This document shows positions 5,521-20,349 of a stretch of DNA of 23,924 nucleotides, piece after piece. A program made the position numbers and the translations under genes. Below the pieces are notes generated by a model, which saw only the letters and a program-made list of their open reading frames with translations, was not told the origin of the DNA and ran no database searches. The stretch is from the IMG/VR virus record IMGVR_UViG_3300011013_000097, positions 1 through 23,924 of that record. One strand, written 5' to 3'. The DNA comes from a virus. Numbering within the stretch: position 1 is the stretch's first letter; the number at the start of each line of letters is the position of its first letter.

Positions 5521-7122
5521 ATGTCTAAAGCGGAATCCCAGGGCTCTGTTCCACATGGTCAGCGATATAAGCTGACCATGTTAGAGGATTTTAGTGGGGG
5601 CTTAAATTTACGTTCGGACCAATTCAATTTGGGTCCTAACGAAAGCCCTAACATGCTTAACGTAGATGTTGACCCTCGTGGCGGTATCAAGATGCGTTTA
5701 GGGGTAGATAAACGCAATTCAACTGCTTTGCCTTCTAGGGTGACAGGTTTAGGGCAGTTCACCCCAGATGGGGGAACAGCCCGAGTTATTTGTTCATATG
5801 GAACTACTGTTGCGGAATCTTCTGCGAATGATTTCACAACTTTAAGTGGTGTTTCGGTTACTGACGGTAACCGTTTGTATGGGCAAACAACTAACGATAA
5901 GTTTTATGGAGTTTCGGGAGATGCTGCGTCATTTGTTTACGATGGAACAACTGCTTCAAACCTTGCGTCGAATGTCAACGGTTCAGCAGGAAATTACCCT
6001 ATAGCTAAATACACTTGCCATTGGAACAACCATGCTTGGGTTGCCCACACCAAAGAAGGTGGCACTGCTTACGCTAACCGTGTGCGTTGGTCACGAATAG
6101 ATGATCCAGAGACATGGTTTGATTACGATTATGTGGATGTCAACGTGGGGGAACGAGGCGACGAACTTTCTGCTCTCGTACCCTTCGCTGATCGCTTATT
6201 AATTTTCAAAACGAACAGCGTTCATGCGCTGTACGGTTTTGATTCTTTGACGTTTCAATTAGTGCCTCTTTCCCAGGATGTGGGTTCTGTGGCAATGTCG
6301 TCACCAGTTTCGACTCCTTATGGAGTGTTTTTCTGGTATGACCGTCAAGGCGTATGGATGTATGACGGCGACAAGTTTGTTTGGGTGTTTGAGAAACTCC
6401 AACCAGCTATCGACGATGGAAGATTACAGTTCAACAATCCGCCTCAGTTGGCTTGGTTTAAGAACAGACTTTATGTTTCTGTTGATTGGGATGATTCAGG
6501 TGGTGCTGTTACTCATCGCCGTGTTCTAGTTTTTGACCCGACTTTGGGTGCTTGGACTATGACGAACATAGACGCTAATACGCTGTTGACGTTTGCGCCT
6601 CCTGGCGCTGAACAGGATTTGTTGGCTGCTTGTTATACGAACTCGGGTCGTGTTGTCCATTTGGAACAGGATTTGCAAAGCGATTTCTATGGGACGACGA
6701 CATCGCATATTGATTCTTCTTATACGACAAGTTGGCTTGTTGGGAAGAATCCGATTGTTAAGAAGCGTTGGGGTAAGCCTCGTATTGTGGTGAGTTCTGA
6801 TGCAACTGTGGCTATGTCTGCAAAGTTGTATACGGATTACGACACTGCGAACTTTAAGAAGTCAATGTCCTTTGGTGTTCAAACGGGGGCTACGTCTGGG
6901 GCAACATGGGCTGCTTCGGCAGGCCCAACGGGGGGGACAGGCGTTTATGGTACGAGTACTTGGGCGAGTGAGCCCAATACGGATGTTACTAATATTGAGC
7001 GGCTGCCTACTCTTGGGACAGCTAAGGCTATTCAATTAAAGGTAGAAGGTCCTACATCTGTTGATGAGGCTTGGGAAGTGAACGCTATGGCATTTACTTA
7101 TATTCATAGGAGACTGCGTTAA
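5521..7122 (+). CDS. Tail nozzle / tail tubular protein B-like
   Basis: Large beta-rich protein of 533 residues, most likely the tail nozzle that extends the tail tube, comparable in role to T7 gp12 and P22 gp10. The opening block, LEDFSGGLNLRSDQFNLG followed by NMLNVDVDPRGGIKMRLG, is characteristic of this family. Middle repeats such as GVFFWYDRQGVWMYDGDKF and RLLIFKTNSVHALYG fit beta-propeller blades. The stop overlaps the next ATG by one base (TAATG at 7120-7124), and an AGGAGA site for that gene sits inside its last codons. No enzyme motif is visible. Confidence 0.8.
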   Translation: MSKAESQGSVPHGQRYKLTMLEDFSGGLNLRSDQFNLGPNESPNMLNVDVDPRGGIKMRLGVDKRNSTALPSRVTGLGQFTPDGGTARVICSYGTTVAESSANDFTTLSGVSVTDGNRLYGQTTNDKFYGVSGDAASFVYDGTTASNLASNVNGSAGNYPIAKYTCHWNNHAWVAHTKEGGTAYANRVRWSRIDDPETWFDYDYVDVNVGERGDELSALVPFADRLLIFKTNSVHALYGFDSLTFQLVPLSQDVGSVAMSSPVSTPYGVFFWYDRQGVWMYDGDKFVWVFEKLQPAIDDGRLQFNNPPQLAWFKNRLYVSVDWDDSGGAVTHRRVLVFDPTLGAWTMTNIDANTLLTFAPPGAEQDLLAACYTNSGRVVHLEQDLQSDFYGTTTSHIDSSYTTSWLVGKNPIVKKRWGKPRIVVSSDATVAMSAKLYTDYDTANFKKSMSFGVQTGATSGATWAASAGPTGGTGVYGTSTWASEPNTDVTNIERLPTLGTAKAIQLKVEGPTSVDEAWEVNAMAFTYIHRRLR

Positions 7123-8402
7123 TGGCAACCTTTACCCAGCCGAATACGGCTGTAGCTGGTAGTGCGATCATTGCTAGCGAACATAACTCTAACTGGACTT
7201 ATTTGAAGAACTGGTTAGAGGGTGTTCCTGGTCAGACCGCTACTTATCCTGGGGTAATTCAGAATACTGGTGGAACAGTTAGCGGCGATTTAGCTGTTAC
7301 TGGTGGTTTAACTGGTGGGACTCTTACCTCTACGGGAAATGTTTCTCTTGGAGCAACAAACCACCTGTATTTGAGCAGTACCCAACATAGCGTTATTGGT
7401 TTGAGCACTGGTACTGATATCAACGCTGAAACTGCTGGAAGTTTCTTAAAAGATCTTGCTTATCGAGCGAACTTCTTAAGCTCGGCAGCGCCAGGAGGCG
7501 TTGCTGGACCTGGCAATAACACTCACTGGCTTTCTAACGGTGCTGACATAGCTGCTCCTGCGGCTGATGCTGGCAACTACTTGACTGAAGCCCATCGTTA
7601 TTCGGTGTACTCTCGTCGTGCTGGCGAAGGATACGCTGGGGCGGCGGAAGCTCGCCCCGAGTCCGAATATCGTCTTGTGGTAAATGGTTCTATTGCTGTC
7701 CGTGGCGACATTATTGGTTATTCCAGCAAAAACGAAAGCGTGCCTGGAACGTCAAGCGATTACGGGCTGGGTTTAGGTACCCGTATTGACTGCCAATGGT
7801 TGAATGTTGGGGCCAACGTAGATATTGCTGGGGAGCTACGAGTACAAACTGCGTATGACTATGCCCGTATCTATATGGGTAATGACTATTACACGGCTGA
7901 AGATTACATCGAGTGGAAAGACACTCTTCCAACAACCAACCTTCCTGGCTTCCAATTTGTTCACAACAGCACCGCTCATTTAACGATTGCCGAATCATCA
8001 GGTGTTCTTGATTTACGCAGTCAATCAGGTTGGCCGACGCTTTCAGGAACTGGTGCAGTTATTACGACTACTGGTTCGCATCAGCTTGGGTTATCTTCTT
8101 CTTCGATTCGTTTCAAAGAAGATGTAGAAGATGTTGAGACTGAAGATAATTGGACAAAACTTCGGGCTTTGAAGCCACGTACGTTTCGTTGGAACGAAGA
8201 AGTGGCAACTCATTCGGGGATGGACTATGAAACTCAGGTTCCTGAGCTTGGGTTTATTGCCGAGGAAGTACATGAGGCTGCGCCTGACGCAACATTGTAC
8301 GATGAGAATGGTGACCCGATTGTGTATCGAGAGAAGTCGATGCTTGCAATGCTAGTTAAAGCAGTGCAAGACATTGACGAGCGTTTGGGGGCTCTTGAAT
8401 AA
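7122..8402 (+). CDS. Tail fibre with C-terminal S74 self-cleaving chaperone
   Basis: Fibre or spike-type protein of 426 residues. The N-terminal two thirds is beta-rich with short repeats ([28 protein letters not shown]). The last 100 residues match the peptidase S74 intramolecular chaperone: [27 protein letters not shown], then [16 protein letters not shown] and a final helix [21 protein letters not shown]. The likely Ser-Lys dyad is S327 and K332, with the five-residue spacing seen in this family. Cleavage just before S327 would leave a 326-residue fibre and a 100-residue chaperone after trimer folding. The start and stop both overlap neighbours by one base, so it is translationally tied to both. 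The receptor target is unknown. Confidence 0.85.
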
Positions 8403-9049
8403 TGGCGACAGGGACCACGTACACCAATGATGTAGGCAGAGGCCAGAACCTCATTTCCTATGCTGACGGTTTCCGTTATCAAGGACAATGGTCGTCTGGT
8501 ACCTCCTACTCTGTTGGTGATGTTGTTGAATACAGCAGCGGTTCCTATGTTGCTCGCACAGCGCATTCTGGTCAAACTCCTTCTGCTGGTAGCAGTTATT
8601 GGCAAACAATTTCTGCGCCAGGAGCAGCAGGTGGCCCTGGCCCAGCAGGAGCATCAGGGCCGCAGGGCCCAACGGGCCCAACGGGCCCAGACGGTGCAAC
8701 TGTTCTTAACGGAATAGGTGATCCGCAAGGAGTTACTGGTCAAGACGGCGACTTCTATTTGAATGTATCCAATAACTATTTCTTTGGACCTAAAGCCAGC
8801 GGCGTTTGGCCTGTTGGGTTTAGTTTGATTGGCCCGAATGGGCCACAGGGTTCAACGGGACCTACGGGACCCACTGGTCCAGTTGGCCCACCTGGTGGGC
8901 CCCCTGGGCCCACAGGCCCAACGGGGCCCACGGGAAGTGTGGGTCCAGCAGGTCAAGCTTCTGGGCTTGTCAATGGTGGCATCCCAGCGTCTAATTCTAA
9001 TGGAGATTATGGAGGCGTCACACCTATTGACGCAGGAGGGCCAACGTAG
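8402..9049 (+). CDS. Collagen-like tail protein with carbohydrate-binding-like N-domain
   Basis: Structural protein of 215 residues with four parts. Residues 25-70 contain [19 protein letters not shown] and an SYWQTI end, the aromatic spacing of a small chitin-binding-type (CBM5/12-like) module. Residues 74-98 and 144-185 are Gly-X-Y repeats rich in Gly-Pro-Thr, expected to form a collagen-like triple helix. They are separated by a non-collagen insert with [16 protein letters not shown], common in phage fibres. A register break (GPPGGPP) interrupts the second repeat at 162-168. The C-terminal tail ([16 protein letters not shown] then IDAGGPT) resembles the end of the next protein. It may be a fibre stalk or a surface-binding protein. 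No strong ribosome site is seen before the ATG, which overlaps the previous stop. Confidence 0.82.
8621..8695 (+). repeat. Collagen-coding 9-base repeat, block 1
   Basis: Tandem Gly-X-Y codons in the collagen-like gene. GGGCCC palindromes occur at 8665, 8674 and 8683 with an exact 9-base period, each unit reading GGC CCA ACG or near it. The perfect local periodicity is a likely substrate for slippage or recombination, which could change stalk length. Confidence 0.75.
8831..8956 (+). repeat. Collagen-coding 9-base repeat, block 2
   Basis: Second and longer Gly-X-Y coding block. GGGCCC occurs at 8897, 8906 and 8924, again on a 9-base grid. A Gly-Gly register shift lies near 8885-8905. The block is GC-rich compared with its surroundings. 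The repeat is less uniform than block 1, with ACG, ACT and CCT variants. Confidence 0.72.
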
Positions 9050-9351
9050 TGCCTATTCAGATTCAATTTCGTAGAGGAACCCATGCTCAGTGGGTTGCTG
9101 CTGATCCTGTCTTAGCTGACGGCGAAATGGCTATCCAAACTGACGCTGGTGGTGGCGAACAAGCTATGACCTTAAAAATTGGTGATGGTACTACGGCTTG
9201 GAGTTCGCTGGCTTACGGCGGGCTGCGTGGACCGACTGGACCGACTGGTCCTCACGGAACTTCTGTCAATAACCTTGACGGGGGGGAAGCGGCGACTAAC
9301 TATGGAGGCATCGGGGCTACGGCTACTGGTGGTAACGCACAAGGAATATAA
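9049..9351 (+). CDS. Short tail protein, Mtd-N-like domain plus collagen-like tail
   Basis: The GTG at 9049 overlaps the previous TAG by one base and is served by GGAGGG at about 9035-9040. Residues 1-58 match the small N-terminal domain typical of phage tail proteins (major tropism determinant N-terminal type): IQIQFRRGTHAQWVAADPVL, then GE and LKIGDGTTAWSSLAYGGL. A short collagen-like stretch, [10 protein letters not shown], follows. The tail NLDGGEAATNYGG...GG repeats the pattern at the end of the preceding protein. At 100 residues it is short and contains no receptor-binding domain of its own. It may be a linker or adaptor within the fibre complex. It is a partial paralogue of the next gene. 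Confidence 0.8.
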   Translation: MPIQIQFRRGTHAQWVAADPVLADGEMAIQTDAGGGEQAMTLKIGDGTTAWSSLAYGGLRGPTGPTGPHGTSVNNLDGGEAATNYGGIGATATGGNAQGI

Positions 9352-9831
9352 ATGGCTGTACAAATACAACTTCGACGAGACTCCAGCACCAACTGGACCT
9401 CTGCTAACCCTACGCTCGCTCTTGGCGAGATCGGGTTAGAAACCGATGGATACAAATACAAGATTGGTGACGGCGCTACTGCGTGGACCTCGTTAGGTTA
9501 CGCAGAGCTAGCTGGTACCGACGTATTTACCATTAATGAGCAGACAGGTACCGCTTATACGTTGGCTGCTGGGGACGCTGGCAAGCTTATTAAGATGACG
9601 AACGCTGCGGCAAACACCTTAACGGTGCCGCCAAGTTCGAGCGTCAACTATGACATTGGAACAACAATCAATGTTGTCCAATATGGTGCAGGTCAAACAA
9701 CTTTGACTGCTGGCGCTGGTGTAACCATCTACTCGTACAACAGTGCGTTAGCTATTACTGGTCAGTACGGTCAAGCTGTTCTCACCAAGTGTGACACTGA
9801 TCTTTGGATTGCGGCAGGACTTCTGAGCTAA
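9352..9831 (+). CDS. Tail protein, Mtd-N-like domain plus beta C-domain
   Basis: The ATG begins immediately after the previous stop (TAAATG), with AAGGA just upstream. Residues 1-50 repeat the N-terminal domain of the preceding gene (VQIQLRRDSSTNWTSANPTL, GEIGLETDGYKYKIGDGATA). Residues 60-159 form a separate beta-rich module with YTLAAGDAGKLIKMTNAAAN, GTTINVVQYGAGQTTLTAG and a closing TKCDTDLWIAAGLL. This C-terminal module is common at the ends of phage tail and fibre proteins. The pair of genes therefore shares a head domain with different ends. It is probably a virion surface protein. Its function in binding is not determined. Confidence 0.82.
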   Translation: MAVQIQLRRDSSTNWTSANPTLALGEIGLETDGYKYKIGDGATAWTSLGYAELAGTDVFTINEQTGTAYTLAAGDAGKLIKMTNAAANTLTVPPSSSVNYDIGTTINVVQYGAGQTTLTAGAGVTIYSYNSALAITGQYGQAVLTKCDTDLWIAAGLLS

Positions 9832-10406
9832 TGGCTGGTGTAACGACTGCTTCTAGGGCTGGTTGGGGGATTATTGCTTCTTCGGAAGCAATGAACCCCA
9901 AATTGCAAGGCGATTATCTCAACTCGACGACCAACGCTTCTGGCAATTTCAGCATAACTAGTATCCCGACTACGGACTGGAAAGATTTAGAAATCTGGTT
10001 GAGTAAAAGTAACCAAAGCACTTGGACTGGTAGTTGGTATTTCTATTTCAATAACAACCAGAGTTTCGGTAATTCGTCTTACTGGTATCGAGGTCATTCA
10101 ACTGGGACTAGCTATGGAACTGACTCCCAGAATTACGCTCATATGTATCCAGAGGGTTACTCTAATTACGGTCATATGTGTCGCATCTATATCGCTAACT
10201 ATTCCAGCACGACAAACAATAAAGCTTGGTGGTCAATGGGGTCTTACACGAACGGAACCGCTACGAGTTATGGGACTCACCAGTTCAATTCAGGAGTATT
10301 AAACCTTGTTGATCCTATTACTTCGTTCCAAACGTCAGATTCGTATGGTAACGGCAGCGTCAGCTATCAGGCGTGGACAATACTTGGCCGAGGAGTCAAA
10401 CCATAA
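9831..10406 (+). CDS. Putative tail surface protein, aromatic/Ser/Asn-rich, 191 aa
   Basis: I place the start at the ATG at 9831, which overlaps the previous TAA by one base, as in the neighbouring genes. An upstream TTG at 9804 would only add coding inside the preceding gene. The product is rich in Trp, Tyr, Ser, Asn, Thr and Gly and poor in charge. Its pattern is like a beta-sandwich virion protein: WKDLEIWLSKSN near the start, then FYFNNNQSFGN, RIYIANYSSTTNNKAWW, and an end with ITSFQTSD and the short strand AWTILGRGVKP. This layout (an LxI strand, an I-x-NY turn, a closing strand) recurs in phage tail proteins of unknown detailed role. The family is not named. Binding to the host surface is an inference. 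Confidence 0.72.
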   Translation: MAGVTTASRAGWGIIASSEAMNPKLQGDYLNSTTNASGNFSITSIPTTDWKDLEIWLSKSNQSTWTGSWYFYFNNNQSFGNSSYWYRGHSTGTSYGTDSQNYAHMYPEGYSNYGHMCRIYIANYSSTTNNKAWWSMGSYTNGTATSYGTHQFNSGVLNLVDPITSFQTSDSYGNGSVSYQAWTILGRGVKP

Positions 10407-11092
10407 TGGCTCTTAAACAAAAGTTTTACGAACTTGGTTCTGCTACGACTGGTTCAGATAACACTCTTCAATATTTAACTATTGAGGGTTTGAATACTGA
10501 TTACGCCATGTTTTCAATCGTGTTCGACGGAATGCTTAAAATGCCTTCCACTGATGAAAGTTCTCTTAACTATTCGTGGCAGTACGGACCAACTGTTGAA
10601 ATGCAAGGCGCTTGGCCTGGTGGACCGAATGCTTCTGCGGCTAAGTATCGAAACTTGATGGTTGAGTGGATGCCAAATGTTGGAAACTCTACCTGTCGAT
10701 TAGGTAACGGTCGCGAAGCATACGTTACGACTAGTTACGGCAGCTTCCCTAGATGGTATTACATTACTGCTGCTTATGATTTCAGTGAACGAATGGTGAT
10801 GGAAGGTAATTGCATTCTTCCTGGGGATGACAGCATGAAAGTTATCGCTTGGAACGGCGGTGGACCTTTACCTGGTAATCCAGGCAGTTTCGGCAACTAT
10901 GGTTCGGCTCGTCAAATGGCTTATACTAAACTTGATTGCCAACTTGCTGATTCTGCGCCGACTTCGATAGGTCCAATGAGCAGTATTCGCATTGGTGCAG
11001 GATTAACCACAAATGGTAACCCTTTCACTTTTAACGTATTTTCGACACTCAAAGTTTATGGGATGGGCTGGACTGATGTTCACAGCACCTAA
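10406..11092 (+). CDS. Putative tail surface protein, 228 aa
   Basis: The ATG at 10406 overlaps the previous TAA by one base and is preceded by GAGGAG at 10390-10395. The earlier in-frame start at 10373 would lie inside the preceding gene and is not preferred. The product is beta-rich with many Gly, Ser, Tyr and Trp: TLQYLTIEGLNTDYAMFSIV near the start, WYYITAAYDFSERMVMEG in the middle, and PMSSIRIGAG with NVFSTLKVYGMGWTD at the end. The end resembles the closing strands of the preceding protein, so the two may share a fold. Three Cys are present. No enzyme motif is visible. It probably belongs to the fibre or baseplate layer, from context. Confidence 0.7.
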   Translation: MALKQKFYELGSATTGSDNTLQYLTIEGLNTDYAMFSIVFDGMLKMPSTDESSLNYSWQYGPTVEMQGAWPGGPNASAAKYRNLMVEWMPNVGNSTCRLGNGREAYVTTSYGSFPRWYYITAAYDFSERMVMEGNCILPGDDSMKVIAWNGGGPLPGNPGSFGNYGSARQMAYTKLDCQLADSAPTSIGPMSSIRIGAGLTTNGNPFTFNVFSTLKVYGMGWTDVHST

Positions 11093-11106
11093 AGGAATGA
11101 ATTGAT

Positions 11107-11820
11107 ATGCCAAATCAGAATTGGGTTTTAGCAGCACAAGTGCACGTTCCTTATAGCAGCGCTGTGAACCAAGTTACGTTCAGTAACACCACTTCCCAAA
11201 CTGCGACAGATGACACTGGGCAAGTTCGCACCTTGACGTATTCTCAAGCTCCTATTGCTAGGATGTTTGCTAAATATACGATTCACACTTCCTCCTCTCT
11301 GAGCCAAACCCAGGGTTATTCATACCTGCACACAACAGGTCAGCATGATTACGCTGAGGAATGGTGTGGCCCAAATCAAATTGGCACGCTGTATTCAAGT
11401 GGTAACAGCACAGGTACTGGTACCGCAAGCTATTACACCACTGGTGCTTATTGGGGTTATGGCGCTATGAAACACCACTACAGTATGTATGGTTGGGGTG
11501 CTGCAGTAACTGATGCTGCAGGCGCAACTGTTCAACCTTATGACAGGCGCAGGCAGGGTGTGAACGTAGGGTGTTGGGAGTGGTATACCACCGATCAATT
11601 TTACCCAGTTCATCAACACTGGACTATGTGTTGCACTGACGGTACTTCAGACGGTTCTGCTGCTACTGGTAACAGCGAGTGGGGGGCTTATGCACAGGGT
11701 TGCGGTGGACAAAACAGCACCTACAGCCCCTCTAATTTTTATTGGTATTGCGGTTACAACGTCAGTGGGACTTTTCTCTTGTATCGGTCTTGTAATGGGG
11801 ATTTTCAAGTAAATGAATAA
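11107..11820 (+). CDS. Putative tail surface protein, Cys-, Trp- and Tyr-rich C-terminal half
   Basis: The ATG at 11107 follows AAAGGAATGA and is separated by 14 bases from the previous gene, ending the run of overlapping starts. The 237-residue product is rich in Tyr, Trp, Gly, Ser and Thr, with no long helix. The C-terminal half holds most of its seven Cys (WCGPNQ, GCWEW, MCCTDG, GCGGQN, YCGYN, SCNGD), dense with aromatic residues. Such composition suits an extracellular, disulphide-stabilised beta domain able to bind sugar or protein. I do not recognise a named family. The last gene of a fibre cassette is often the most variable and host-specific, but that is inference here. Confidence 0.7.
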   Translation: MPNQNWVLAAQVHVPYSSAVNQVTFSNTTSQTATDDTGQVRTLTYSQAPIARMFAKYTIHTSSSLSQTQGYSYLHTTGQHDYAEEWCGPNQIGTLYSSGNSTGTGTASYYTTGAYWGYGAMKHHYSMYGWGAAVTDAAGATVQPYDRRRQGVNVGCWEWYTTDQFYPVHQHWTMCCTDGTSDGSAATGNSEWGAYAQGCGGQNSTYSPSNFYWYCGYNVSGTFLLYRSCNGDFQVNE

Positions 11821-11829
11821 GGAAATAAT

Positions 11830-12108
11830 ATGAGTTTAAGAGAACCGCCAATGATGATGGCTATTTATGATTGTGCGACCCAAGAGCAAACTATTCGTGA
11901 GTTCACCCAAGAAGAGTATGACGCTTTTGATGAGCAGCAAAAATTGGCTGTTCAGAACGAGGCAGAAGAAACACAAAAGAATGCTGATGCTGCGGCTGGT
12001 CGTCAGAAACTTCTTGATCTTGGGTTAAGCGAAGCTGAGGTTAATGCTCTTGTAGGACCTCCGCCTCCTGAGGGTGCTCCAGATGTTGAGGCACCTGATC
12101 CAGCATGA
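11830..12108 (+). CDS. Small protein after tail genes, 92 aa, Pro-rich end
   Basis: The ATG at 11830 follows AAGGAA. The product starts with MMMAIYDCATQEQTIREFTQEEYDAF, a style seen in small proteins at the end of phage tail gene clusters. A charged helical middle (EAEETQKNADAAAGRQKLLDLGLSEAEV) and a Pro/Glu-rich end (GPPPPEGAPDVEAPDPA) follow. The helical part may contact a tail or virion partner. No known domain is certain. The stop overlaps the ATG of the next small gene (ATGA at 12105-12108). Confidence 0.68.
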   Translation: MSLREPPMMMAIYDCATQEQTIREFTQEEYDAFDEQQKLAVQNEAEETQKNADAAAGRQKLLDLGLSEAEVNALVGPPPPEGAPDVEAPDPA

Positions 12109-12260
12109 GCGCTGACGTAGGTATCGAAGAAGTTATTGCTTCTTTGAGTGAGCGTGGGCAGATGGAATGGGAACTCGCTTTGATGCGAGTCCACATTGCC
12201 AATCTTGAAGCGGCTCAATGTTCGTGTGACTGCGATAAATGTGGGACGAAAGAGCCCTAA
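12105..12260 (+). CDS. Cys-rich small protein, 51 aa
   Basis: A short gene easily missed by length cut-offs. The ATG at 12105 overlaps the TGA of the gene before it by four bases (ATGA), and the frame closes with TAA at 12258-12260. Residues 8-37 look like one amphipathic helix (IEEVIASLSERGQMEWELAL, then MRVHIANLEAA). The end contains C39, C41, C43 and C46 (CSCDCDKC), a compact metal-binding-like cluster followed by a short polar tail. It is too short for an enzyme. It could bind zinc or another metal, or form a disulphide clamp on a partner. The overlap, and the fact that it fills the gap exactly to the ribosome site of the next gene, support it as real. Confidence 0.65.
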   Translation: MSADVGIEEVIASLSERGQMEWELALMRVHIANLEAAQCSCDCDKCGTKEP

Positions 12261-14742: not shown

Positions 14743-17700
14743 ATGGCTAATAGAACAGATATGTTGGCTGCTTTGAAAACCCCTGGGTCGATAGATCTTT
14801 CTCCTGATTCTGGACACATAGATTTAAGCCCAGATGTTCCTAGCGAAAGCAAGGCCACATCGAATATTTGGGGTATAGATATAGATATTCCTGAACCTCG
14901 CCCTAAAGGGGGCGGAGGTTTTCTTGGGCCTATAGGTAAGATGATTGATATTGTTGACACGCCTCGTGCGGCGCTTGTGTCAACGGCTAAAGAAATAACT
15001 GACTTGATTCAGGGTGAAGGTTTTTCTGCTACTGATTGGTGGAACCAAACTTCTGACAATTACATGGTTGGTCAGTTCATGCAGGACGAGGGGTGGGGTA
15101 CAGGCACAGGCTGGGATTTAGCTATTGGGTTGCCTTTGGATATTGCTCTTGACCCGTTGACGTATTTGACTGGTGGCGCTGGAGCGGCTGCTCGTATAGG
15201 TACGTGGCGTAAAGCGTCTGACGCTTTGCGTAAGGCTGCTGTTACGGCTGATAAAGCTGGTGATGCGGTTAAGGCTAAGAGGTTGAATGATTCTGCGGTT
15301 AGGGTCGCTAAGAGTCGTTCAATTCTTGCAGGTGGTGATGATCTCGCTGAGATTGGTTTGAATCCTGCTGGTATGGGGTTTACTGCGTTTGGTACGGGCC
15401 GTGTTGGTCGTAAGCTTTTTGAACCTCTTGCTAATCGAGCATCTGGGGGACAATTCAGCAAGTGGGCTGATGCCAGGAGAGTCAAGCAAATACCTAAGTA
15501 TTTGTTAGACGATGCTGCCTTTGATCTTTCGAGTGCTACTAAGCAAGGTCTGAAAAACCAAGAAGCGGTTTTGACGACCATGAAGAATATGCGGGCTGGT
15601 AAGAGCTTGGGTAATGTTTCGTCGCAAGTTAAGCAAGCAGCGAAACTTGCTTCGAGTATGGCGGTTGATGTTGGTCCCCGTTTAGGCAAAGGTAGCGCCG
15701 CATTTGGGCGCACCATTGCTATGGGTCCTGGGAGGCTTTTCAATACTGCTGTCGCTAAGACTCCTTATTTGCGAAGTTTGAGTCTTGCTTTAGGTGGCGA
15801 TACTGCCAATTTGAAGATGGCTTCTAGGGGTTACGGTGTTGATGGTGCCAAGCTCACTGATGGCGATGTTTTGTTTCATATGGAAGCTTGGGACAATTTA
15901 GATATTGCGAAGAATGCTGAGAGGGCTTTTGGTATTAGTTTTGGGCAAACCGTATCCAAGTTACGCAAAAAGGTAGATAGATTAAATAGAAACTTTAGGG
16001 CTGCAAAGCTTCCTGAGCTTACTGAGGAAGAGCTTCTTCTGATAGGAGCCCAGCATCCTTGGGCTCAGATGGATGAGGCGCAGCAGGCGGCGACTGGGTT
16101 GTTGCCTGGGAGCGATAAAGCTCGGGCGCAAGAACTTGTTCAAGAATTCTGGGAAGATACTAGAAAGCAGTTCAACGAGCAGATCAAAGCGGAAGGTGGA
16201 ACCCAATATGGGACCATCGACGAAATGATCGACGAAATGTACGCTGCTCGTTATCTTGATTTAGATAATCCTGTTGCTCAGGTTGTTGGTGGCAATCGCA
16301 ATGCGTGGCAAGCTCCGCTTCCAGAGTCGGGGATGATGAAAGGTAGTCCTTTCCAGCCTCGAACTTATGTTGCTAATCCTCAGAAGGGGACAAGGCAAAC
16401 AAATATTTTCTTGGGAGAAGAACTTGTTCCTCCTGGTCAGCACCCTAAAGGTTTGAGTATTAGGGAGCAGATGGTTGAGATTGGAAAGCGGGCGCATGGT
16501 GCCGAGTTCCAAGATATGTTTAAGAAAGATTTTTGGGATGTTGTGCCTAGGTACGGTCGCGACATGGGTCGCCGTGTTCGTTTCCAGCGTTGGCATAACG
16601 AAAATGTTTCATCTGGTTTGATAAACAGAGCAACTGTTGACGGAGGTTCGGTTACTTTTAATCGTGAGCAAGCACAAAAACTTGAAAAGTTTATTGAGAA
16701 TGCTCAGAAACACCAAGCAAGAAGAGCTAGGAAATTAAATAGATCTCGACAAGATGTTGAGAAAGCTCGACAGAATGCTGTTAAGAGCCGCCCTGGGCAA
16801 GAAGAAGAATTAGTAGGATTACAAAATCTTTTAGTTCGGATGCACAATGAGGGTATGGAAATTAGCAAGATTGCTAATGGCCTTGAAGAAGCATTAGATG
16901 TTACGGATCTTTCTGATGAGGCTCGTGCCGTAATCGTTCAACTCGCTAACGGCACATTTGATGCCGCTGATGCCACGGGAGTTATTGCTGGCAGGGTTGG
17001 GCAAGAAATTATTTCTGTATTGGAGCCAGCGCAGCAACGGTTATCTATGCTGCGTAATTTCCAGCGTCAACTTCAAAGTGCTTTAGATCAGATTCAGGCT
17101 ATGGGGGCTCCTGGCGCTGCTGCTGGTGCTTCTGAAGCTCAGATTGCCCGTTTCTTAACAAAGATAGACGGGCATATCAGCAATTTGGAAGAAGTCTTTA
17201 CTGGTCTTAACCGTGGGTTATTGCGAGGTTTGGAGAACGGCGAAGAAGTCGTCGTTATGAAACAGGTTGTCAAATTAACTGACGATATCAATAACCCTAA
17301 GTACCCCATTTCGTATACGACGAAAAGGCTTGAAGGTCCTGCTCCTATTCAGCGTGAAGTAAGACGTATGTCGCCTGAGCGTGCTGAAAGTTTGCGTGAC
17401 GTTCGCACGCCTAAGCAACCAGACCAAGCTATGAAACAGCGACGTGAGGCTGGCAGGTTTGCTTCTGGTCAAGAACCAGATTTACGTCCAGAGTTTGCTT
17501 CTGGGACTATTGAGACTCCGCCGTTGACTAGGCATACTGTTCAGACTCCTACTGAAACATTTCATGTTGACCGCTACATTTCTCCTACTGCTGGAGATTT
17601 GGGTTGGCAGATAACTGGTGAGGGTTTGGAAGCTGGGCATCCTCTTGTTGGCGGCACGAAGGTTTATGCCAGTTTGGGTGAGGCTTTAGACGAGGTGTAC

Positions 17701-20349
17701 TCTTCGCTTGGCTATACAAAGGTGCAGGATAGATTGCCAGACGGGACGTTTGGTGGGAAATATTTTGTGCGTGAGGTGACTGTTCCTAAGGATTCTCCTT
17801 TATGGAGAACCCAATCTGGTAAGTCTTGGTCAGAGCGTATGGAGAAGATGGGTCAGCTTTCTAATCAGCTTGATGCTGAAGCTGTGATTGCTGGTAAGTC
17901 TATTGAAGATGCGGAAGATTACATTCGGGGGCTTGCCCGAGAGTTAGATGGATCTGATGCTGTTATTGGTTTGCAAGATGAGATTGCTCGTTTGCGTGCG
18001 TTTAATGAAGCACAACAAGGATCGAGGCATTGGTTTTATGAGCTTGTGGAGCAGGCCCCTGTTAGGGAAGCTGGCGAGGCTAGTGTTTGGCCTCCTCGCT
18101 CTAGGGCTGTTTGGCGTAATGCTGATGGTTCTGAGAGAACGATTTATGAAGTTGGGCAGGAGTTGGGCCTTGATGATGCGACGATAGCTAAACGCTACGT
18201 CGATCAGCACAGTCGGGTTGTTAAGACTCGTGGTCCTAAGAAAGCTCAGTCGAAGAAAACGGTTAGGGCTCAGAAGAAGGGGCGGCAAGAAGCGTTTGAG
18301 GACGCTGGTGCTCCTCAAACTCGTTTGGTTCCTCGTGAGTTCAGTGACGATCTCACCAGAATTGCCAAGAACTTAGAAGATGATATGCCGTGGCGACAGT
18401 TCGACACGGAACGAAATGGTTTCTTCCAAAGCCGAAACAGAACTGTTCCTCATATTGTTACTGATGTTGAAGAGAAGATGGCTTATCTTCAGAAAACCTA
18501 TAACAGGGTCCAACAAAAAATTAATGAGGCTGCTGATAGGGCAGGGGTTGTTAAAGACAAGATCAATGCGGCTGAAGCTCGTGTTGCTGCTAAAGAAGCA
18601 AACCTTGAGGATGTTCGTTCAGAGATTTGGATTGAGCGGCAAGCGCAAGCAGCGGAGCAACTCCAGATCCAAGCAGAAATTCAGAATTTGAAAACTTCTG
18701 GAAGTGTTGATGATTGGCTGAAAACTGCTGACAATAATGATGAAGCCATGATGTATGTGATGAAGAATCGTGGCTTGTATACCGCATTTTTGGATGCGTA
18801 TGGTGAAGCGCAAACTAACTTTATGCAGTCCTTCAGGAATCTTGATAAACGATTTGTGCCTGGTGGTACTGCTAGTGCTGGTGGGAACTATGCGGTTGGT
18901 GGTTTAAGCGAATCTGCTATGCACACTTTTGAAGAAGCTATTACTGCTGGCGCTAAACTTGCGGATTACAAAGAAGTTAAGAAGTTTGTTCAACAGTATC
19001 GAACGATAGCTAACTGGTGGAAAGCGCAAGCTGTGAGTACTCCAGGTTTCATTCTTCGTAACCTTATGGGCGGTTTGTGGATTAACTCTGCTATTGCTGG
19101 TGTGGAGATGGGTACCCATAGCAAGGTTATTGCTATGGCTAAGGCTGCTGCTTTAGAAGGTAACGGCAACGTCATTGATGGTGCTCGGCTTTTGTCTCAG
19201 GGAGATGGTGCAAAACTTTCTGGTGTTGCTGGTCTTGGTGGTATGCGTCGCGCTAGCGCTTATGACTTTGAAGTGTTTACTGAGCTTCTGGAAAGCGGTG
19301 CTGTTGGTACTGGTCAGGCGTGGTCTGAAGTTGCGACTGCTGTTTCACCTACTGCTACTGCGCCATTTGCTCGGGAAATTAACAGATTTGGTCGTGTTAA
19401 GTCTGGTGCGAGAATGGCTATGGCTGATGAAAGCACCACTTGGAATCCATTTAGCGCAGATTTCAAAGGTTACGTTGGTGTTAGAGGCCAGAACGAACGT
19501 GCAGAATTTGTTTTGCGTGCCGCTTTGGGCTTTGACACAATCAAGAAGGGCGGCAATTCTATTGATGCGGTGAGGAATATCAACAAGTATCACTTCGATT
19601 ATTCTGATCTGACTGATGTGGAACGTAGCATTAAAGATGTGATTCCTTTCTACACTTGGCAAAAGAATGTGGTTCCAGTGTTGTTGGAGTCAATGGGGAA
19701 ACGTCCTCAGGCTTGGTCGAATCTTCTTCGCACCAAGAAAGAGTTGGAGCTTCATTCTCCTCAGGAAGGTCTCGTGCCTGATTACTTTGGTGAGAACATG
19801 GGTATCAGGTTGCCGTTTAAGATTCCTGGGATTCGTGGGGGGCGTGTGTACGCTATGCCAGATCTTCCTTTCAGGAATCTGGCTACTTTTGCGAAGGAAC
19901 CGACTTCTCCGATTCGTGTGCCTTTAGAGTCTGCGTTTCCTTGGATTAAGATGCCTGTTGAGATTTGGGCTAAGAAGCAGTCGTTTGCTGATATTCCGTT
20001 TAGCGGAAGATATCAGCAGGTTCCGAGTTGGGGTAAGATTCCTGGGTTGATGCCTATCCTTAGTGCTATGGGTAAGGCTAAGAAGTCCAGTGATGGAACG
20101 TGGGTGATGCGTGACAACGATATTTATGCTGTGGATCAGTTCTCTCCTGTGTTGGGTCGTATGCGGAGGATGTTGCCTAATGAAAGCGCTAAGCAAAGAC
20201 GTTTAGCGCAGACTTGGATATCAACAATCTTTGGTGGGGGTTTCCGTGTTAATGATCCTTGGGAAAAGAACTCTCAACTTATCAGGGATAACACGAGTTT
20301 CGCTAATGAGTGGCGTGATATTCTTGATATAGATACAAGGCGGGTATGA
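14743..20349 (+). CDS. Very large internal virion / ejection-type protein, 1868 aa
   Basis: The largest gene of the window; the ATG at 14743 follows AGGAAG. In order: residues 1-60 are flexible with repeated IDLSPD; about 120-155 is an Ala/Gly-rich hydrophobic stretch (DLAIGLPLDIALDPLTYLTG); about 635-715 and 1240-1320 are long charged coiled coils; about 1159-1190 is Lys/Arg-rich; about 1423-1457 is hydrophobic (VSTPGFILRNLMGGLWINSA). The block near 1615-1650, YHFDYSDLTDVERSIKDVIP followed by FYTWQKN, recurs in large phage virion proteins thought to be ejected with the DNA. No lysozyme or transglycosylase active site was recognised. The likely role is an inner-core or ejection protein that spans the cell envelope at infection. 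A tape-measure or polyvalent-type protein is the alternative. The frame is intact. Confidence 0.72.
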   Translation: MANRTDMLAALKTPGSIDLSPDSGHIDLSPDVPSESKATSNIWGIDIDIPEPRPKGGGGFLGPIGKMIDIVDTPRAALVSTAKEITDLIQGEGFSATDWWNQTSDNYMVGQFMQDEGWGTGTGWDLAIGLPLDIALDPLTYLTGGAGAAARIGTWRKASDALRKAAVTADKAGDAVKAKRLNDSAVRVAKSRSILAGGDDLAEIGLNPAGMGFTAFGTGRVGRKLFEPLANRASGGQFSKWADARRVKQIPKYLLDDAAFDLSSATKQGLKNQEAVLTTMKNMRAGKSLGNVSSQVKQAAKLASSMAVDVGPRLGKGSAAFGRTIAMGPGRLFNTAVAKTPYLRSLSLALGGDTANLKMASRGYGVDGAKLTDGDVLFHMEAWDNLDIAKNAERAFGISFGQTVSKLRKKVDRLNRNFRAAKLPELTEEELLLIGAQHPWAQMDEAQQAATGLLPGSDKARAQELVQEFWEDTRKQFNEQIKAEGGTQYGTIDEMIDEMYAARYLDLDNPVAQVVGGNRNAWQAPLPESGMMKGSPFQPRTYVANPQKGTRQTNIFLGEELVPPGQHPKGLSIREQMVEIGKRAHGAEFQDMFKKDFWDVVPRYGRDMGRRVRFQRWHNENVSSGLINRATVDGGSVTFNREQAQKLEKFIENAQKHQARRARKLNRSRQDVEKARQNAVKSRPGQEEELVGLQNLLVRMHNEGMEISKIANGLEEALDVTDLSDEARAVIVQLANGTFDAADATGVIAGRVGQEIISVLEPAQQRLSMLRNFQRQLQSALDQIQAMGAPGAAAGASEAQIARFLTKIDGHISNLEEVFTGLNRGLLRGLENGEEVVVMKQVVKLTDDINNPKYPISYTTKRLEGPAPIQREVRRMSPERAESLRDVRTPKQPDQAMKQRREAGRFASGQEPDLRPEFASGTIETPPLTRHTVQTPTETFHVDRYISPTAGDLGWQITGEGLEAGHPLVGGTKVYASLGEALDEVYSSLGYTKVQDRLPDGTFGGKYFVREVTVPKDSPLWRTQSGKSWSERMEKMGQLSNQLDAEAVIAGKSIEDAEDYIRGLARELDGSDAVIGLQDEIARLRAFNEAQQGSRHWFYELVEQAPVREAGEASVWPPRSRAVWRNADGSERTIYEVGQELGLDDATIAKRYVDQHSRVVKTRGPKKAQSKKTVRAQKKGRQEAFEDAGAPQTRLVPREFSDDLTRIAKNLEDDMPWRQFDTERNGFFQSRNRTVPHIVTDVEEKMAYLQKTYNRVQQKINEAADRAGVVKDKINAAEARVAAKEANLEDVRSEIWIERQAQAAEQLQIQAEIQNLKTSGSVDDWLKTADNNDEAMMYVMKNRGLYTAFLDAYGEAQTNFMQSFRNLDKRFVPGGTASAGGNYAVGGLSESAMHTFEEAITAGAKLADYKEVKKFVQQYRTIANWWKAQAVSTPGFILRNLMGGLWINSAIAGVEMGTHSKVIAMAKAAALEGNGNVIDGARLLSQGDGAKLSGVAGLGGMRRASAYDFEVFTELLESGAVGTGQAWSEVATAVSPTATAPFAREINRFGRVKSGARMAMADESTTWNPFSADFKGYVGVRGQNERAEFVLRAALGFDTIKKGGNSIDAVRNINKYHFDYSDLTDVERSIKDVIPFYTWQKNVVPVLLESMGKRPQAWSNLLRTKKELELHSPQEGLVPDYFGENMGIRLPFKIPGIRGGRVYAMPDLPFRNLATFAKEPTSPIRVPLESAFPWIKMPVEIWAKKQSFADIPFSGRYQQVPSWGKIPGLMPILSAMGKAKKSSDGTWVMRDNDIYAVDQFSPVLGRMRRMLPNESAKQRRLAQTWISTIFGGGFRVNDPWEKNSQLIRDNTSFANEWRDILDIDTRRV

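Follow-up and report, generated by a model that had tools for sequence, protein, structure and literature searches.

The window, by which we mean the whole analysed stretch of DNA, is a virus record of 23,924 bases whose gene content reads as that of a tailed phage. Its major capsid protein (MCP) matched 23 records from named or deposited phages, and identity to the 12 of them listed is 24-37%. The sequence-only reading had singled out three consecutive genes at positions 9831 to 11820, and three consecutive plus-strand ORFs, here called A, B and C, begin and end at exactly these positions (Table 1). The trio lies directly 3' of a run of fibre genes, in which an S74-chaperone gene is followed by a gene for a collagen-like protein (coll) and by two genes for Mtd_N proteins (Mtd1 and Mtd2). 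Such a position, in or beside the tail-fibre genes, is one that we looked for in candidate receptor-binding proteins. The assignment of coll comes from PF01391 (E 1.5e-8) and from a PHROG tail fibre match (E 2e-26); its CBM_5_12-like stretch matched PF02839 with E 3.6e-5 and 24.1 bits, below the cut-off of 26.2. The C-terminal domain of Mtd2 is also found in tail proteins of Gordonia and other phages; the tblastn matches of Mtd2 included minor tail proteins of Gordonia phages, and its 25 PHROG matches included tail families. In Variovorax phage VBv52 (L060; L numbers denote loci outside the window), a fibre has the same C-terminal domain, and the ORF after that fibre (L060 4310-4894) gave sub-cut-off Pfam matches to 3keto-disac_hyd and to two carbohydrate-binding modules. 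The genes of the trio are tightly packed. The ATG of A overlaps the stop codon of Mtd2 by one base, the ATG of B overlaps the stop codon of A in the same way, and C is preceded by the purine-rich stretch AAAGGA. Gene D, the next downstream, had no family match that counts in PHROGs or NCBIfam.

Table 1. Positions of the features discussed, numbered from the first base of the window.
Feature	Position	Strand	Description	Basis
S74-chaperone protein (S74)	7122-8402		fibre run upstream of the trio	PHROGs/Pfam
Collagen-like fibre protein (coll)	8402..9049	+	contains a CBM_5_12-like stretch	Pfam, PHROGs
Mtd1	9049..9351	+	one of two Mtd_N proteins	PF18454, E 5e-13
Mtd2	9352..9831	+	Mtd_N domain and C-terminal domain	PF18454, E 1.8e-13
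Gene A	9831..10406	+	191 aa, first of the trio; predicted beta-sandwich, ConA-like type	ORF
Gene B	10406..11092	+	228 aa, second of the trio; predicted beta-sandwich	ORF
Gene C	11107..11820	+	237 aa, third of the trio; 7 Cys	ORF
Gene D	11830..12108	+	92 aa; straddles the variable island and a more conserved flank	
1868-aa protein	14743-20349			

The three products had been described as dense in Trp, Tyr, Ser, Thr, Asn and Gly. Among the 20 genes examined, A and C each have a combined Trp and Tyr content of 13.1%, whereas none of the 17 genes outside the trio exceeds 9.0%; the figure for B, 8.8%, falls within the range of the latter. For all six residues the fractions are 0.59 in A, 0.51 in C and 0.45 in B, with 0.54 in the collagen-like gene and 0.45 in Mtd2. 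On these composition figures, the description is good for A and C and weak for B. The Cys count of C is the highest among the same 20 genes (elsewhere at most three), and five of these residues are retained in L002. The further proposal that A and B share a closing pattern, AWTILGRGV and FSTLKVYGM, came out at chance level in sequence. The two segments score 2 with BLOSUM62, and every one of 1000 trials with shuffled C-terminal 30-mers yielded a 9-mer pair at least equal to them; the best-scoring 9-mer pair of the two proteins was equalled in 293 of 1000. On this shuffling result, we discarded the pattern as a sign of likeness in sequence. Each segment overlaps the last predicted beta strand of its protein (A 181-189, strand 180-189; B 212-220, strand 214-220). 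A separate motif of B, QGAW.GG, is kept in all eight sequences of alignment A10, where Q67, G68, A69, W70, G72 and G73 are invariant.

The sequence-only reading had recognised no named family for these proteins, which is true of the libraries that we searched (Pfam, PHROGs and NCBIfam). Pfam had no match for A or C and one for B, far under the cut-off, and nothing that counts was found for any of the three in PHROGs, NCBIfam, PADLOC or the PDB sequences. Among 50,697 phage records, neither blastn nor tblastn matched A, B or C, and tblastn of the B equivalent of L021 against phages gave no match. The members of alignments A7-A9, scanned singly, reached no better than E 0.014 in PHROGs, the profiles of these alignments gave a single match in the PDB (E 0.54), and the proteins in the same slot of other loci had no Pfam match that counts. 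Single-sequence scans of IMG/VR retrieved no relative of A or B and one of C; scans with alignments retrieved two loci for A and four, later nine, for B, while st5521, a neighbouring virion protein, gave 50. Several of these loci are stretches of one contig. The 19 more distant loci L040-L058, several of them short, held no match to A, B or C at E 1e-3. Literature searches, confined to listings, turned up no account recognised as covering these proteins, so one may exist.

The products had also been suggested to be related beta-sandwich proteins. AlphaFold models, built from alignments of 12 sequences for A and 10 for B, were beta-sandwiches in both cases, with moderate confidence (pLDDT 65.4 and pTM 0.65 for A, pLDDT 68.9 and pTM 0.73 for B). 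In Foldseek searches of the PDB, legume lectins headed the list for B (best E 4e-4). The first 12 rows for A were coronavirus spike domains, followed by a mixture including lectins and GH16-type enzymes, with no E below 0.001. The TM-scores of these PDB searches were mostly 0.2-0.35. After realignment, ConA-like proteins dominated the lists of both models, with 4gkx, 3lcp, 8jp7 and 6xt6 as common entries. VIA-align placed A closest to 8aa2_E, a levan utilisation chain (Z 8.6), and to several legume lectins (Z about 7-7.6), and B closest to ERGIC-53 and pro-concanavalin A (Z 5.9). In the whole-model count, Z was at least 8 for 3 of 1000 chains with A and for 0 of 982 with B. The ConA-like matches are support and no proof, since by the tool's own warning a Z below 8 may reflect merely a common arrangement. 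Against the predicted viral proteins of BFVD, the model of B had 53 matches with E no higher than 0.001 (best E 3.9e-9, probability 1.00); among the 50 listed, seven were named as tail fibre or side tail fibre repeat proteins, and most were uncharacterised or unnamed. With moderate confidence, then, A and B are predicted to have ConA-like folds; unrelated folds were not the outcome, and C may have the same fold. The suggestion of beta-sandwiches agreed with the predicted folds of A and B, and that of kinship found no counterpart in sequence. Paralogy within the trio was not detectable by profile comparison, in which hhalign gave probabilities of 2.7, 0.2 and 1.2, although the weak alignments of A with B and of B with C are plausible in register.

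We compared the window with close relatives gene by gene. In L011, the portal, scaffold, g4813, st5521 and S74 are 98-99% identical to those of the window, MCP is 93%, and coll, Mtd1 and Mtd2 are 96-99%; the trio, by contrast, has 73% (A), 80% (B) and 71% (C), and D has 82%. In L019, identities are 97% for the portal, 90% for the scaffold, 94% for MCP, 99% for st5521, 72% for S74, 95% for coll, 96% for Mtd1 and 92% for Mtd2, with 51, 37 and 33% for A, B and C, 52% for D, 82-84% for E and 72-74% for F. L003 has 83% in st5521 and 71, 83 and 75% in the trio, and L002 has 83% in st5521 and 71% in A. High variation among relatives had been anticipated for this stretch; the trio indeed varies far more than the genes around it, and no high conservation was observed. 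This variability above that of most virion genes in close relatives is a second property that we looked for in receptor-binding proteins, and S74 is variable too. At the nucleotide level, identity to L019 was 90-97% in segments starting at 9334-9709, dropped at about 9784-9859, stayed at 31-61% in segments starting at 9859-11732, and recovered at about 11946-12084, inside D, reaching 87% at 12084. Mtd2 is the conserved left flank of the island (92-96% identity in L011, L002 and L019). On the right, the first part of D lies in the island (49-52% at 11805-11871) and its last part in the more conserved flank (81-88% from 12009 to 12159). The values for MCP in L011 (93%) and for S74 (72%) and F (74%) in L019 argue against variation limited to the trio, which is not the sole variable stretch because S74 forms a second island. 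The S74 fibre gene is 98% identical in L011 and 72% in L019, with st5521 at 99% in both. For the 1868-aa protein, identity to L019 was only 38% across the first 768 residues, its neighbours E and F being far higher.

The three genes appear to travel together. Three ORFs of 191-240 aa were found, in order, at 13 of the 13 slot-spanning loci examined (window included), a count that is partly selected because some loci were retrieved as carriers of A, B or C, and that contains the near-duplicate contig pairs L021/L022 and L065/L066. In L021, L031 and L038, B and C equivalents were recognised chiefly from their place and size and less from their sequence (12-28% identity, the L031/L038 pair apart). 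The A and B equivalents of L031 and L038 have 207-224 aa. L007 and L039 have an additional overlapping ORF inside A. L031 (4516-5238) and L038 (13138-13872) have two extra ORFs of about 120 aa before the A equivalent, mutually similar by eye; those of L031 had no Pfam match. Across 10 loci, the distances of the three genes correlated with one another (Mantel rho 0.75-0.84, p 0.002, 500 permutations) and with those of coll and Mtd2 (rho 0.47-0.81), and not with those of st5521 (rho -0.04, -0.26 and -0.16); the L066 rows of st5521 and C include a few extra codons with an internal stop, with a slight effect on the L066 identities and the Mantel values. In the pair L007/L008, dS is 1.17 for coll, yet 0.058, 0.022 and 0.024 for A, B and C; in L011/L003 it is 1.19 for st5521, yet 0.105, 0.109 and 0.225 for the trio. 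Mtd1 and Mtd2 are intermediate in both pairs (dS 0.18-0.43). On these distances, both pairs share recent trio alleles on older backbones.

The same two pairs are informative as to how the trio changes. In the trio, third codon positions account for a fraction of 0.12-0.40 of the differences, whereas the fraction for coll, Mtd1 and Mtd2 is 0.59-0.76; the codon changes of the trio are near position-neutral in both pairs, unlike those of the genes just upstream. The dN/dS values of the trio were 0.36-0.59 between the window and L011 or L003; for A, B and C in turn, they were 1.10, 0.47 and 0.74 in L011/L003 and 1.01, 0.76 and 2.43 in L007/L008, and 0.27, 0.51 and 0.33 between the window and L019, where dS (1.5-2.8) is near saturation. 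For the upstream genes, the ratio was 0.01-0.22 in every comparison except that with L019, in which it rose to as much as 0.34 (S74). Over the five allele pairs, the value for C spans 0.33-2.43, the lowest coming with saturated dS. With a codon model of five alleles (four for st5521 and S74), omega was 0.497 for A, 0.309 for B and 0.462 for C, compared with 0.045-0.191 for st5521, S74, coll, Mtd1 and Mtd2, and 0.233 for D. A dN/dS clearly above one occurred once, for C of L007/L008 (2.43, bootstrap 1.24-10.77). When the models of A and B were used to place the variable sites, no enrichment outside strands was seen in either. In A, 46 of the 79 strand residues vary, as do 53 of the 112 others (p 0.14); the corresponding counts for B are 32 of 77 and 66 of 151 (p 0.78).

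The codon data bear on an unlikely, though not negligible, alternative, in which the trio consists of accessory, near-dispensable virion proteins and its variation is mostly old allelic divergence, spread by recombination under relaxed constraint and non-adaptive. The five-allele omega values of 0.31-0.50, all below one, and the sharing of alleles by diverged backbones accord with it, as does a Fisher test with approximate site counts for C of L007/L008 (p 0.14). It sits poorly with the intact state of the three ORFs at every slot-spanning locus examined, and with the differences in C of L007/L008, which fall at codon positions 1 and 2 rather than 3 in the ratio 30:4 (p 0.0059, uncorrected for 14 tests). 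Less probable again is a role as decoration of the capsid or of some other virion part, in which the trio would adhere to surfaces or matrix in the manner of Hoc and the primary receptor-binding tip would be something else. Heads too can bear small decorating beta-sandwich proteins, and the PHROG matches of Mtd2 also include head-and-packaging families and a weak Hoc-like match (E 0.1); but the trio directly follows the tail-fibre genes, its distances track those of coll and Mtd2 and not of st5521, and strong diversification would be better suited to receptor contact. The catalytic motif of GH16-type enzymes is E-x-D-x(1,2)-E; it is absent from A, B and C, and a GH16-type enzyme was rejected on this ground. 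That at least one of the three is an enzyme acting on surface glycans, with a catalytic site in a lectin-like fold, is very improbable, for although the structural match lists hold GH16 enzymes, fructosidase chains and sialidases, and PMC7771536 reports sialic-acid-removal proteins in the variable part of an Actinomarinales virus, neither Pfam nor NCBIfam gave an enzyme family match and the invariant or nearly invariant columns of alignments A7, A8 and A9 are devoid of Asp, Glu and His.

We consider it likely that the trio is a co-inherited, diversifying receptor-binding cassette, probably glycan-binding and lectin-like, at the distal end of the tail fibre. A, B and C would be small lectin-like beta-sandwich proteins located on the virion. 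The upstream collagen-like and Mtd_N proteins would build the tail-fibre assembly, and A, B and C would form or decorate its distal end, where they may bind the receptor and recognise the host surface, glycans being the most likely ligand. The cassette may be exchanged by recombination in its conserved flanks, the 3' end of Mtd2 on one side and D/E on the other. Against this reading stand the moderate confidence of the models, the few matches with Z of at least 8, the low TM-scores in the PDB and the spike domains that head the list of A, the five-allele omega below one, with a dN/dS clearly above one in a single case, and the lack of enrichment of variable sites outside strands. The variation beyond the trio and the absence of sequence kinship among its members also count against it. 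A more elaborate version, which we hold only tentatively and think somewhat doubtful, makes A, B and C three different lectin subunits of one hetero-oligomeric tip, each for a different host glycan and all exchanged together; if so, the phage would read three surface sugars in combination instead of a single sugar. Should the receptor-binding cassette be right, it would constitute a defined movable host-recognition unit for uncultured phages that have no close named relative in the searched collection, it would mark three protein families that have no match that counts in Pfam, PHROGs or NCBIfam, and its small proteins would be suited to glycan-binding tests.

As to the host, a scan of genome contigs with the portal gave no match, and one with MCP gave a single contig, NHIM01000009.1 (L069 1-15234), whose MCP is 73% identical to that of the window. 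By eye, this contig has the same portal-to-S74 gene order as the window. It is binned with the metagenome-assembled genome of Acidimicrobiaceae bacterium TMED189, which is a weak host hint because binning can misplace phage contigs. PMC7771536 describes viruses of Actinomarinales, including one whose variable part is for the removal of sialic acid; nothing in our analysis equates them with the group of the window.

Several known systems resemble the trio in part. The model of B is like predicted beta-sandwiches of uncultured Caudovirales phages in BFVD (A0A6J5NEP3, 'Tail fiber protein'; A0A6J5Q8S9, 'Fibronectin type III'; A0A6J5NFQ6, uncharacterised), with E of about 4e-9, probability 1.00 and query TM 0.53-0.61. 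These targets are small single proteins or larger proteins with 8-14% identity to B, whereas B is one of three separate adjacent genes. The ConA-like (L-type) lectin fold, that of legume lectins, ERGIC-53 and galectins, dominates the realigned lists of A and B (listed Z 6.8-8.6 for A and 5.3-5.9 for B), but identity to A and B is 4-13%, and no Pfam lectin match accompanies the structural one. The Mtd_N domains directly upstream recall Mtd of Bordetella phage and the diversity-generating retroelements. Unlike in that system, whole genes differ between trio alleles. A match to RVT_1 (reverse transcriptase) was found in 0 of 10 records, which are possibly fragments. In Alteromonas phages A5, V22 and P24, fibre genes, with lectin-like heads on the central fibre, are kept together as a host recognition module although the rest of the genes differ (PMC10579305). 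There, the fibre and its chaperone are shared between unrelated phage families, whereas the trio consists of three small proteins shared within one group. Exchangeable, variable host-recognition genes are a known kind, given these Alteromonas modules (PMC10579305) and the raised nonsynonymous variation in tail and tail-fibre genes of Mediterranean viruses reported for one depth layer in PMC6832022; three separate small genes in a fixed order are less usual.
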